The notes beneath the pieces were generated by a model. That model had not been told where the DNA came from. It made no database searches and saw only the letters and a program-made list of their open reading frames with translations. From the NCBI GenBank assembly GCA_022695795.1, contig MU404154.1, positions 62,001-126,000 on the forward strand: 64,000 nt of DNA, read 5' to 3'. A program made the translations under genes and the position numbers. Shown here one piece after another: positions 40,371-59,986 of the stretch. Numbering within the stretch: position 1 is the stretch's first letter; each line of letters begins with the position of its first letter. The DNA comes from Biscogniauxia marginata (lineage: Eukaryota; Ascomycota; Sordariomycetes; Xylariales; Xylariaceae).

Positions 40371-42563
40371 TTAGACATCAGTGCTTCCAGGGTCTAGGCT
40401 CGTAAATATCTTATGTACCCTTCTACTGGCCGCCTGGCCAACCGTACGGTCTGTAAACGCGCCGTCCTTGTTTGCGCTCTTTCGACAGTCCTCCAGCGCT
40501 AGTGGCCCTTCTCGTTCGAGTCCTCGGACTAGCTCGGCCACAGTCCCGTACTTAGCCGCGATGCCATACGCAACGGGCGCCGTGACGCGGGTGATCTCCT
40601 GCAGCATGCGGACATATGTATCCTTAGCATCGTCGCCCGTGCGCACCTGTCCCGCCTCCATGCAGAAGCCCGCATCGGCGGACGCATCTCGAGCTTTCCG
40701 GTATGGGATCGTGCTGATGTGCTGAGTAAATACCGCGACCCACTGAGCCGTTTCGACAGGTGCATTAGTATGATGGATTAGAGCACCGTGGATGACTTGA
40801 AGAGACAACAATGCGTCTTCGATGCTGTCTTCGTCGATATACTCCTGATGTTGGGTATTGTTACGACGACGAGATTGGCTGGATGCCTGAACCAGATTGC
40901 CATTCTGGTCAAGGCTACGAACGGCTGATGCAAACTGCCGGTTAAGGGCATTGCGATTTTTCCGCATCCAAGTCACGAGTCCTTCAATGAGGTATACGAT
41001 GGTAGTATTGGGAAAGTTTGTCTTCATCTTTAAGACATGGGCTTCGAGGTCCTGGCCGTCTGAGCCGAGGGCGAGCTTAACGAACTCGGGCGCCTGGATG
41101 ACAGCCATGATGTGATTCTCATCCTTAATACGCATAGGGACCGGTACCCAGTGGCCCAGCTCTTTGTTGAATGCAGAACTAACCTTCCGCCGCCACTTAA
41201 TGACGTTCTCGACTCGACTATGCCAGGTCCCATGTTGAACATCCAAATCACCTAGAAGAGCGTCAATCTGAACCTTGATGCCCGGGCTGAGACTGTCTGG
41301 GATGTCTACAATCATTTCGGGTGTGGACACTTTCTTGTCGGTCCGTAGCTTATTGACTTCTGCTAAAGCCTTGTCTTTTTCCCTCGCGAGAGCTCGTTGT
41401 TCCTTGGCACGATCTTTTTCGGTCCGTCTGCGCTCTTTTTCGGCTTCACGAGCCGCAGCCTTTTCTTTCCTTTCTCGCTCCTTCTCCTCCCCTGACTTTG
41501 TAGTTTTCTTTCTAGGTTCCTTTGTCGGGTTAGACTTCGGGCGAGGAGATAGGCTGCAAGAACGCGTCTTAGAGGCGATATTGGTGAAGTCAATATCATC
41601 TAATTCGGGTAGATCTTCAGATTCTGACCCGGCAAGGCTGTCTACATACAGGGCTTCAGCAAGTTGCTTTCCTTTCTGTTGTGGTGATCGGGTGGGAAAA
41701 ACATCATCGTCGGCTCCGATCTCTGGCATTGAGCTCGAAATCGGATCCCAGGCGGCGTTCTTCTTAGAAGCCTTCGGCCGGGTCCTCTCTGGCGAAGTCT
41801 CAAAGGGGTCACTAGACAAGTCCATGAACGCTGAAGTCCTTGACGATTGTTTACTTGGATTGCACCCTCCGACGGAATTGGATGGTGGATTCGATAATTC
41901 TGCGGGCCAATTCCAGGTCGAAGACTGCATATAGCTGTCACTCCTCTTTGGTGGACTACCAAATGGAATTTCCCGCGAGGACTTGGTCGATGCTAGATCG
42001 ATCATCTGCTTCCCTGGTGGGCTTGCGAAAGGATCCGAGTGAATATCATCGCATGCTCTTCTTTTGCGTATGGCGAAACCACGATCGTTTGGGGAACTAC
42101 TGTTCTCGATGGGGTCAGCAGTCGAATTCCATCGTTGAATCCTGGCCGGCCCTATCGACTCGCGAGTCTTTCTGCTGACTACGGCGGAGCTGGTCCTCTT
42201 CAAGTCTTCGCGCATCCTACTGCGCACTAAGCCGGGCGAGAGTCGAGGCCTCTTTGCTGTTAGGTCTCCTCGGACATCTCTGCTTGTATCGGCATCATCC
42301 GATAGAAAGAGGAAGTCGTCATCATGTTGAAAACGATTGCCTGTGGTGCGCTTGAACCCGGGGCCTGTCTGGCTCACTGTTCGCGAAGCGGAAGCAGTTG
42401 CGGTGTTTCTGGGTCCGTCGATCGTCAAGTCGAAGATATCGTAGTCGAGGGCTCTTGATGGTTTAGGGAGGCCGGCTCGTTTCGGTGGTTTAGGAGACTT
42501 GGGAATAATGGGGCACGGCTCGGATGGGCTTGAAGACAACAAACTGATTACTTGGGGCGGCAT
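40371..42563 (-). CDS. EME1: crossover junction endonuclease subunit Eme1/Mms4
   Basis: Non-catalytic partner of Mus81. The heterodimer cleaves 3' flaps, nicked Holliday junctions and stalled forks in the nucleus. Single exon, 730 residues, within the usual range for fungal homologues. The first 350 residues are disordered and Ser/Pro-rich, with two SUMO-interaction-like patches: VISLLSSSPSEP at the very N terminus and DIFDLTIDG near residue 42. A highly charged helix (EEKERERKEKAAAREAEKER region) precedes the domain. The C-terminal 310 residues form the ERCC4-type nuclease-like and helix-hairpin-helix region, recognisable from GHWVPVPMRIKDENHIMAVI, then TTIVYLIEGL, then QWVAVFTQHISTIPYRKARD and the AAKYGTVAELVRGLEREGP hairpin. 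The ERKxxxD catalytic signature of Mus81/XPF is absent, as expected for Eme1. Confidence 0.92.
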   Translation of the reverse strand: MPPQVISLLSSSPSEPCPIIPKSPKPPKRAGLPKPSRALDYDIFDLTIDGPRNTATASASRTVSQTGPGFKRTTGNRFQHDDDFLFLSDDADTSRDVRGDLTAKRPRLSPGLVRSRMREDLKRTSSAVVSRKTRESIGPARIQRWNSTADPIENSSSPNDRGFAIRKRRACDDIHSDPFASPPGKQMIDLASTKSSREIPFGSPPKRSDSYMQSSTWNWPAELSNPPSNSVGGCNPSKQSSRTSAFMDLSSDPFETSPERTRPKASKKNAAWDPISSSMPEIGADDDVFPTRSPQQKGKQLAEALYVDSLAGSESEDLPELDDIDFTNIASKTRSCSLSPRPKSNPTKEPRKKTTKSGEEKERERKEKAAAREAEKERRRTEKDRAKEQRALAREKDKALAEVNKLRTDKKVSTPEMIVDIPDSLSPGIKVQIDALLGDLDVQHGTWHSRVENVIKWRRKVSSAFNKELGHWVPVPMRIKDENHIMAVIQAPEFVKLALGSDGQDLEAHVLKMKTNFPNTTIVYLIEGLVTWMRKNRNALNRQFASAVRSLDQNGNLVQASSQSRRRNNTQHQEYIDEDSIEDALLSLQVIHGALIHHTNAPVETAQWVAVFTQHISTIPYRKARDASADAGFCMEAGQVRTGDDAKDTYVRMLQEITRVTAPVAYGIAAKYGTVAELVRGLEREGPLALEDCRKSANKDGAFTDRTVGQAASRRVHKIFTSLDPGSTDV

Positions 42564-56348: not shown

Positions 56349-57414
<1,066 letters not shown>

Positions 57415-57892: not shown

Positions 57893-58849
57893 ATGTACCT
57901 TTTGCTGATTCGGCATGGCGAGTCGGTTGATAACGTAGCTGGGCTTTAGTAAGTTGGGCATCAAATCTTTCGCTTCATTCCTGCTCTAACCCTCTTCTTA
58001 AGTGCTGGCTCCCGCGACTCACCCTTGACAAACCACGGCGTCCTCCAGACGAAGCGACTGGGCGCACATCTTACGAAACGGCGTTCCTCGATAGGGCCGA
58101 TCAGACAAGTCTTCTCGTCTAATCTTCAGAGGGCATATCGCACTGCCGAAGCCATTGTCGACGCCCAACGGTCATCAACCGACGAGAGAGTTGATACACA
58201 GCTGACATCGTTGGACGTCGTTCAGCTTCCCGATCTTCGGGAGAAGGACTTCGGTTCGGTCGAGGGCAAGAAGTTCGGGGCTAGAGACCGAGACAAGAGC
58301 AATATTTCAACTTCCCAGTCAGACTCGGAATCAATAGCTTCGATGAGAACTAGGGTCGACCGATTCCTTGATACGCATTTAGTCCCTACTGTAAACGAAT
58401 ACGTGTCTGAGAATGTCGCTGTCGTCGTAGTTTCTCACGGTATCATCCTCAATGTGCTCTTGAAGGCACTTCTTGGACGCTATCCGACAAGATCTAGCCA
58501 ATCGCATTCCCAGCGGAACGACCGCTGGGATGTTATTTCGGAATATCTAACTGTTTGGAGCAACACGGGGGTGTTGCAAGCGAAGCTAGAGGCTCAAGCA
58601 ATCAGTTCACCCAAACAAGCAGCAGGGGCCGCTGGATCGTCCAATAAGAAATCGACCGAGTCGGATCACCCTCTCCAGGCTAGGGTACAACTCACTATTG
58701 AGCTCACGGACAATGTAGACCACCTCCAAGGTTTGAAGAAGACTAAGGGCGGCATTGGAAGTGCGAAATTTGATTCCCGCCAACGGACGATGGACTCATT
58801 CTTCAGCCCGGCTCTCAAGAAACGGAAGTTAGAAGAATCGAATGACTGA
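57893..58849 (+). CDS. histidine phosphatase (phosphoglycerate mutase-like) with C-terminal PIP-box
   Basis: Exons are 57893-57948 and 58003-58849. The 54-nt intron runs GTAAGT..TTAAG with CTCTAAC as branch point. It gives 300 residues, and the splice joins NVAGLY to AGSRDSPLTNHG, restoring the family pattern. The catalytic LIRHGES is at residues 5-11. The second-half motifs are SSNLQRAYRTAEAI and VVVSHGIILNVLL, carrying the second active-site His, with an acidic segment DLREKDFGSVEGKKF between them. After the domain comes a flexible tail ending QRTMDSFF (residues 279-286) followed by KKRK (291-294). The first fits the PCNA-interaction consensus QxxMxxFF exactly, and the second looks like a nuclear signal. 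The substrate is unknown. The upstream ATG at 57880 is out of frame, so 57893 is the start. Confidence 0.9.
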
Positions 58850-59321: not shown

Positions 59322-59986
59322 TTATTCACCTCTGTTTTCTGGCCCTTCTTCGTCTATTTCGGATGGTAATATGGCGGGAAACCATCCATATTCTGCAAAG
59401 TCGACTGTCAGCTCTCCTAATATTGACGTAGTAACCGTGACACCCTCAGCCTGAAGGGCTGTTGCCTGATTTTGCGCTCCGGATGGTTGAGACCTAGTGG
59501 TTCATCATCAACTATCGGCGTTAAGTCACCTAAGCAGACACGAGACTTAAACATACCGTGGGGATATAACGCCCTTGGAATTGATAACCCGCTGCCAAGG
59601 GACATTGGCATGATTGTATCTCGCGCCTGCATCCTGCGACAGGTGTTTTAGGCACACACCGACTTGCCGGGGTCTCTGAGCTATATATTGATGCGCCGGG
59701 GAGCATTTCGGTCAGTTTGTCGTCATGCGCCTCGTATATAGTTTACTTCTCGCGTGTTGCCGGGGCATATGCTTAGGTGCATAGGTAGGTAGTTACAGTA
59801 GGATAAAAGAAATAGATAGAGCGTGGAAGGAATATCGAGGCAGAGAGAGAGAGAGAGAGAGAAGAGCGTACGAGTTCCAACAAGCTTGGCAATGTGGCCA
59901 TACGTCGTCACCCTGCCGTAAGGTATCTCCTGCACGGCACTGTACACGGCAAAGAAGAAGGCGGATGCTTCGTCGGTCCTCGTCAT
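59322..59986 (-). CDS. ATL1: alkyltransferase-like DNA-damage protein (MGMT homologue with Trp in place of Cys)
   Basis: Binds O6-alkylguanine, flips it out and hands the lesion to nucleotide excision repair; it cannot itself remove the alkyl group. Minus-strand exons are 59986-59872, 59680-59557 and 59493-59322, giving 136 residues. Intron 1 (191 nt) contains a long CT dinucleotide run. The acceptor TATAG at 59681 restores VGTPQRPRQVGVCLKHL, and the second splice gives ISPRSQPSGAQ. Diagnostic features are FFAVYSAVQEIPYGRVTTYG with the helix-turn-helix recognition region, the RPRQVG arginine-finger segment, and VPWQRVINSKG, where Trp67 replaces the acceptor Cys of PCHRV. The C terminus has GELTVDFAEYGWFP. 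It lies tail to tail with the PIP-box phosphatase, 472 bp apart. Confidence 0.93.
59842..59862 (-). repeat. CT dinucleotide microsatellite in ATL1 intron 1
   Basis: About ten GA units on the plus strand, so CT on the gene strand, starting about ten nucleotides inside the intron donor. It makes the first intron unusually long for this window (191 nt). Confidence 0.9.

Follow-up and report, generated by a model that had tools for sequence, protein, structure and literature searches.

A histidine phosphatase of filamentous ascomycetes with a conserved, putative PCNA-interacting motif in its C-terminal tail

The xylarialean ascomycete Biscogniauxia marginata (Sordariomycetes) encodes a histidine phosphatase that carries a putative PCNA-interacting peptide (PIP) box in its C-terminal tail. 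The gene resides on the plus strand at positions 57893..58849 of the 64,000-nucleotide stretch analyzed here (contig MU404154.1, positions 62,001 to 126,000), which we refer to as the window, and the motif, QRTMDSFF, makes up residues 279-286 (58781..58804, plus strand) of the spliced protein. Recruitment to PCNA is likely because substitutions in the conserved motif follow PIP-box rules and because the same genome contains a PCNA gene. We put the probability that the protein is a working phosphatase recruited to PCNA in filamentous ascomycetes, a "PCNA-client phosphatase", at about 0.8; PCNA binding as such appears likely from established knowledge of PIP boxes. The original prediction, made from the DNA letters, had proposed a phosphatase recruited to replication or repair sites. 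The conserved PIP box and the PCNA gene speak for the recruitment, while the placement at such sites is a presumption.

Conservation of the PIP box

Three homologue searches (E ≤ 1e-3) returned 796, 802 and 2270 proteins, and the best 120 of each were combined into 300 distinct proteins that are termed listed homologues in the following. When orthologues without the motif were sought among them, as the original prediction had suggested, the strict motif, defined as Qxx[MLIV]xx[FY][FY], was found in 281 of the 300, always at one alignment position, as checked by aligned columns. It is present in 118 of the 120 proteins of the first list, in 164 of the 182 accumulated after the second and in 117 of the 118 proteins newly contributed by the third search, the query of which had been cut before the motif. 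Neurospora crassa contains a clear homologue (P0149) with the tail QKTMDSFFKPAAKKRRVD. The tail of the B. marginata phosphatase reads KFDSRQRTMDSFFSPALKKRKLEESND, and the spliced protein indeed has, as noted originally, QRTMDSFF at residues 279-286 and KKRK, the first K of which is the fifth residue past FF.

When the complete B. marginata protein was shuffled, 0.56% of the shuffles contained a strict match; for the last 45 residues alone, the share was 0.05%. The corresponding values over the 300 listed homologues are ~0.6% and 0.06%, and in none of these proteins (0 of 300) does a strict match occur before residue 200. A chance match was rejected on the grounds of the 0.05% found for tail shuffles and of the constraint on the motif-defining positions.

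This constraint was assessed on a FastTree phylogeny calculated from residues 1-212, i.e. the catalytic core only, so that Fitch change counts represent events and not sequences (292 tips; eight of the 300 rows were gappy and dropped). On this tree, Q279 changed once, F285 three times and F286 nine times. Position 282 changed 39 times, always within M/I/L/V, and each of the free positions 280, 281, 283 and 284 changed 33-42 times. For comparison, the mean number of changes per column is 86.6 in the linker comprising residues 213-247 and 44.3 in the core. Changes at Q279, F285, F286 and position 282 are thus few or bound to a class, and the remaining positions vary more freely. The substitution pattern is that of PIP box grammar.

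Repair proteins, Rev1 and Mlh1 among them, can recognize PIP-like motifs as well, and it is conceivable that the main partner of the tail is a protein of this kind and not PCNA. The 18 listed homologues that depart from the motif in the aromatic pair would fit such a partner, as a different pocket might tolerate the loss of one aromatic in lineages that retain Q and the other. However, residue 279 is Q in 299 and residue 282 is M, I, L or V in all 300 listed homologues, which corresponds to the PCNA-binding pattern that the available text of PMC10087552 writes as Qxx(psi)xx(theta)(theta), and we regard a main partner other than PCNA as improbable.

Several observations weigh against recruitment to PCNA. 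Nineteen of the 300 listed homologues deviate from the strict motif; 18 of them have an altered aromatic pair, and the remaining one, P0246, has H in place of Q. F286 is replaced by L, V or M in 15 of the 300, and QMFL is the commonest deviant form (eight rows). In view of these departures, some lineages may bind PCNA less tightly. In addition, the first two of the three homologue searches were queried with sequences that contained the motif. The sequence block that precedes the PIP box is as conserved as the box itself, pointing at a tail that does more than present a PIP box. Finally, a literature search conducted largely without subscription papers revealed no histidine phosphatase with a PIP box among the papers listed, and the literature searched lends no support to PCNA binding by such an enzyme.

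Among the 62 homologues that were new in the second list, 16 (P0132, P0136, P0140, P0142, P0144, P0153, P0156, P0157, P0159, P0161, P0165, P0167, P0169, P0173, P0178 and P0182) lack a PIP aromatic (SFL, SFV, SFM, SLF, SMF or SLL) and retain Q as well as the preceding block. By name, many of them presumably belong to the Sordariales or to Cytospora. Relaxation or a different binding mode is possible in these proteins.

PCNA and control motifs in the same genome

The PCNA encoded in the B. marginata genome features the loop LKLMDIDQEHLGIPETEY and a C-terminal LAPK. Two further proteins from the same genome served as positive controls: FEN1 contains QARLEGFFK, and Pol32 ends with QGNIMSFFSKK. Peptides from the FEN1 (QARIEGFF) and PolD3 (QGSIMSWF) proteins of Chaetomium bind Chaetomium PCNA canonically in crystals, according to the accessible part of PMC10787639. 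For the Chaetomium PolD3 and PolD4 peptides, binding strengths of 43 and 22 µM, respectively, are given (PMC10787639, PMC10087552). The phosphatase resembles fungal FEN1 and Pol32/PolD3 in that the same type of motif is situated close to the C-terminus and followed by basic residues. It differs from the nuclease and the polymerase subunit in that its phosphatase domain is not known to act on DNA.

At 17 other places in the genome that match His_Phos_1, a strict motif does not occur in the matched reading frame; the control covers their tails incompletely, as introns were left unspliced and some places are short exons. With 0 of 17 matches in frame, the idea that the motif is general to the gene family in this genome was rejected. 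Two matches in another frame, downstream of loci L014 and L021, were taken as chance, and the same applies to an extra match at locus L029 that appeared in the FEN1/Pol32 control, in which W was also allowed, and that lay antisense to the XPG_N match.

A conserved block and a predicted disordered tail

The PIP box is directly preceded by a near-invariant block (residues 259-278, HLQGLKKTKGGIGSAKFDSR; 58721..58780, plus strand) with the pattern HLxGLK[KR]TxGG[IV]GSxxxD, evident from the alignment and from Fitch counts of 0 for H259, 0 for G269, 1 for G271 and 2 for D276. The spacing between G271 and Q279 is constant in the aligned columns of all 300 listed homologues. Mean information content, calculated from 113 of the 300 rows picked at <65% identity, amounts to 2.3 bits for the core (residues 1-180), 0.55 for the linker (213-247), 2.98 for residues 259-278 and 3.33 for the PIP box, followed by 0.79 for residues 287-290, 2.96 for KKRK and 0.64 for residues 295-300. 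The original prediction had spoken of an otherwise variable tail and overlooked the equally conserved block ahead of the PIP box. The block GLKKTRGGIGSxxxD may provide an extended contact to PCNA, serve the regulation of the enzyme or be a site of modification.

An AlphaFold model (90 alignment rows) has 150 of its 300 residues at a predicted local distance difference test (pLDDT) value of at least 90, with lower values for the stretch 101-130 and for linkers. The variable linker lies between two strands, 209-217 and 246-256, and the confident part of the model stops around residue 260-264. Most of the conserved block, from about residue 265 on, is consequently outside the confidently modeled domain, in a second orthologue as well. 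In the tail (residues 271-300), mean pLDDT per ten residues is 56-67, and a short helical turn is present at 283-286, i.e. at the PIP box. The homologue P0199 from a candelariomycete (57 rows) is similar, with a last strand at 261-270, pLDDT values of 48-53 for the last 28 residues and a short helix at 294-299 inside its PIP box (293-300). The PIP box is therewith predicted to lie in an accessible, disordered tail. PIP boxes adopt a 3-10 helix on PCNA, as stated in the part of PMC10787639 available, and the helical turn in the tail would fit this conformation, as far as a low-confidence model calculated without PCNA allows.

Of the 50 structures of other histidine phosphatases listed, 49 align to the model as far as residue 256-266 and the remaining one, 6s2r_A, as far as residue 275. 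Human TIGAR ends a few residues past the shared strand and bacterial enzymes stop at a similar N-x-x-x-H-L; because of this, the stretch from about residue 264 onwards, which includes the PIP box, gives the impression of an extension added to the fold.

These data also bear on the possibility that the tail serves the enzyme itself, as an active-site lid, as a dimer contact or in self-inhibition, and that it resembles a PIP box by coincidence. Such a role would be in line with residues 259-278 coming close to the PIP box in conservation and with the constant spacing between the two. Yet both models place the tail outside of the confidently modeled domain, the alignments to other histidine phosphatases end at model residue 256-266 in 49 of 50 cases, and the substitutions obey PIP grammar. 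We therefore consider a tail that merely serves its own enzyme quite improbable.

Basic residues following the PIP box

The basic cluster KKRK (residues 291-294; 58817..58828, plus strand) is a candidate nuclear signal and/or a basic flank of the PIP box. Such a cluster, defined as three basic residues in a window of three or four, at most 12 residues after FF, is present in 269 of the 300 listed homologues; its first residue is at +5 in 141 of them and at +1 in 115 others. The case for the nuclear signal originally proposed is weaker than that for the PIP box: the basic cluster is conserved, at a varying distance from FF. Nuclear import via the KKRK cluster is plausible, and the basic residues may also, or alternatively, contribute to affinity for the clamp.

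Basic residues after the motif would also be in accordance with a PIP degron, in which case the protein would not be recruited to work but destroyed on chromatin-bound PCNA by CRL4-Cdt2. The mark of a PIP degron is a TD pair at motif positions 5-6. This pair is present in 0 of the 300 listed homologues, and a degron was accordingly rejected as highly improbable.

In the mechanism that we propose, a catalytically complete RHG phosphatase domain would be followed by a flexible tail, the PIP box of which would dock in the hydrophobic pocket of PCNA, while the adjoining basic cluster would aid nuclear entry and/or binding to the clamp. The enzyme would then act at replication or repair sites.

Phosphatase domain and active site

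The Pfam domain His_Phos_1 (PF00300) is matched by residues 3-184 (57899..58498, plus strand, with the intron inside) with E 1e-27 and a score of 97.5 bits compared to a gathering cut-off of 21.7. R7, H8, G9, R62, E99 and H164 are all present, with the catalytic residues His8 of the RHG motif encoded at 57914-57916, Arg62 at 58130-58132, Glu99 at 58241-58243 and His164 at 58436-58438, all on the plus strand. RHG family enzymes operate via a phospho-histidine, which would here be formed on His8 with the participation of Arg7, Arg62, Glu99 and His164. In the alignment of the 300 listed homologues, E99 is retained in 299, H164 in 300 and R62 in 293 proteins (seven gaps), R7 in 269, H8 in 268 and G9 in 265; the H8 column has five other letters and 27 gaps, the latter stemming from proteins with an annotated start downstream of H8. 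Judged by these residues, the protein is a branch-1 histidine (RHG) phosphatase with an intact catalytic set, in full agreement with its initial description as phosphoglycerate-mutase-like histidine phosphatase.

Relatives and possible function

In a Foldseek search, human TIGAR (E 1.4e-14) and zebrafish TIGAR were closest among the matches listed, at an identity of 18-20%. Profile A2 found zebrafish TIGAR with E 1.3e-18 and CobC with 9e-18, and profile A3 CobC with 2e-18 and TIGAR with 4.9e-18. VIA-align scores were 22.9 for PspA, 22.8 for a riboflavin-pathway phosphatase and 22.8 for TIGAR (identity 25-27%), such that CobC and PspA tie with TIGAR by score. Aligned lengths were 212-213 residues for TIGAR, 183-190 for PspA and the riboflavin enzyme and 213 for the mycobacterial hydrolase 6s2r_A. 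The fold is shared with TIGAR through a C-terminal strand with N-x-x-D-H-L; this stretch (zebrafish TIGAR residues 233-255) is collinear but weak, with 0.8 bits (1.5 in the A3 profile). Human TIGAR, which is short after the shared strand, lacks the GGIG block, the PIP box and the basic tail, and the matched chains of the CobC/PspA/PhoE-type bacterial phosphatases comprise 202-227 residues and are without such a tail. Assignment to a named bacterial equivalog (CobC, PspA or others) was rejected as all 18 NCBIfam matches stay far below their curated cut-offs, e.g. at 63.9 versus 250 bits.

TIGAR is the animal fructose-2,6-bisphosphate phosphatase and also acts on 2,3-bisphosphoglycerate. As the nearest solved relatives, TIGAR, PspA and CobC, are small-molecule phosphatases, the substrate may tentatively be sought among small phosphorylated metabolites or nucleotides, an analogy on which we would not yet bet. 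The same relatives, best-matching by sequence as well as fold, argue against the protein being a PCNA-tethered local protein phosphatase directed at PCNA itself, at another clamp client or at a checkpoint protein, and we take this option to be rather unlikely. A further-reaching picture, to which we give somewhat less than even odds in all its parts, is that of a TIGAR-like dedicated phosphatase that would be held on the replication clamp via its own PIP box and would dephosphorylate a metabolite, a nucleotide or a clamp-associated protein at the fork, with GLKKTRGGIGSxxxD as a second docking or regulatory element.

Under genotoxic stress, TIGAR reportedly moves into the nucleus, and it is reported to further the repair of DNA (available text of PMC4415581); this is the nearest functional parallel we found. 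Precedents for histidine-phosphatase domains joined to nucleic-acid or nucleotide functions are the mycobacterial proteins MutT1 (Nudix plus RHG) and MSMEG_4305/Rv2228c (RNase HI plus CobC domain), as described in the accessible parts of PMC11784022 and PMC7466739. Unlike the fungal protein, these are bacterial domain fusions, and the accessible parts mention no clamp-binding motif. Two points from the same sources speak against this analogy: the protein-phosphatase activity studied in MutT1 did not require the RHG motif, and the two domains of MSMEG_4305 proved functionally separate. Metabolic enzymes have been found with PCNA in human cells, namely ENO1 via an AlkB homologue 2 PCNA-interacting motif (APIM) and 6PGD via a putative PIP box (available text of PMC9937922). 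They share with the phosphatase the idea of PCNA as a scaffold for metabolic enzymes and differ in being glycolytic and pentose-phosphate enzymes and in that cytosolic PCNA is concerned.

If recruitment to PCNA holds true, a phosphatase of the small-molecule type would join the PCNA clients and a dephosphorylation step would be linked to replication or repair; no study of such a step was found in the literature searched. An apparently metabolic enzyme may thus work where DNA is copied or repaired. It would furthermore make the connection reported between a TIGAR-like enzyme and DNA repair accessible at the molecular level, with Neurospora crassa as an organism for direct tests. Most PCNA clients belong to the polymerases, nucleases, ligases or chromatin factors.

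Taxonomic distribution

Motif-bearing listed homologues stem from seven classes of the Pezizomycotina. Sordariomycetes, Xylonomycetes, Coniocybomycetes, Candelariomycetes (two species), Leotiomycetes and Lecanoromycetes were looked up, and the homologues from Alternaria, Pyrenophora and others are assumed by us to belong to the Dothideomycetes. Each class other than Sordariomycetes and Dothideomycetes is represented by few listed proteins. Eurotiomycetes, Saccharomycotina, Taphrinomycotina and Basidiomycota were not seen among the matches listed (best 120 per search), and relatives in viral contigs were not confirmed.

Gene model

Translation of 57893-58849 in one frame begins with MYLLLIRHGESVDNVAGL, runs into two stops and is then open to the end. 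The stops are due to a 54-nucleotide intron (GTAAGT...CTTAAG) at 57949..58002, located between exon 1 (57893..57948, residues 1-18 and part of 19, with the RHG motif, start identical to P0001) and exon 2 (58003..58849, the remainder of the protein and the stop codon), all on the plus strand. Three GT-AG options near the stops preserve the frame, and only that at 57949-58002 retains the conserved GLYAGSRDSPLTNHG (GLYAGSRDS). The spliced product of 300 residues is identical over its whole length to P0001, which its source names "phosphoglycerate mutase-like protein" from B. marginata and which was found at one place in the 45.3-Mb genome. The intron had been missed by the original prediction.

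Neighboring genes

Just upstream of the phosphatase, a Thi4 thiamine-thiazole synthase is encoded in two open frames (56349-57283, plus strand). A thiamine riboswitch was considered near Thi4, and an Rfam scan of the window detected no family at gathering score. The next gene downstream of the phosphatase (59723-59986, minus strand) encodes a DNA-binding domain of the 6-O-methylguanine DNA methyltransferase type (PF01035) that includes EIPYGRVTTYG, and its product is perhaps an alkyltransferase-like repair protein. Farther upstream, at 40371-42563 on the minus strand, resides the gene for an ERCC4-domain protein of 730 amino acids (PF02732), perhaps an Eme1/Mms4-like nuclease subunit.
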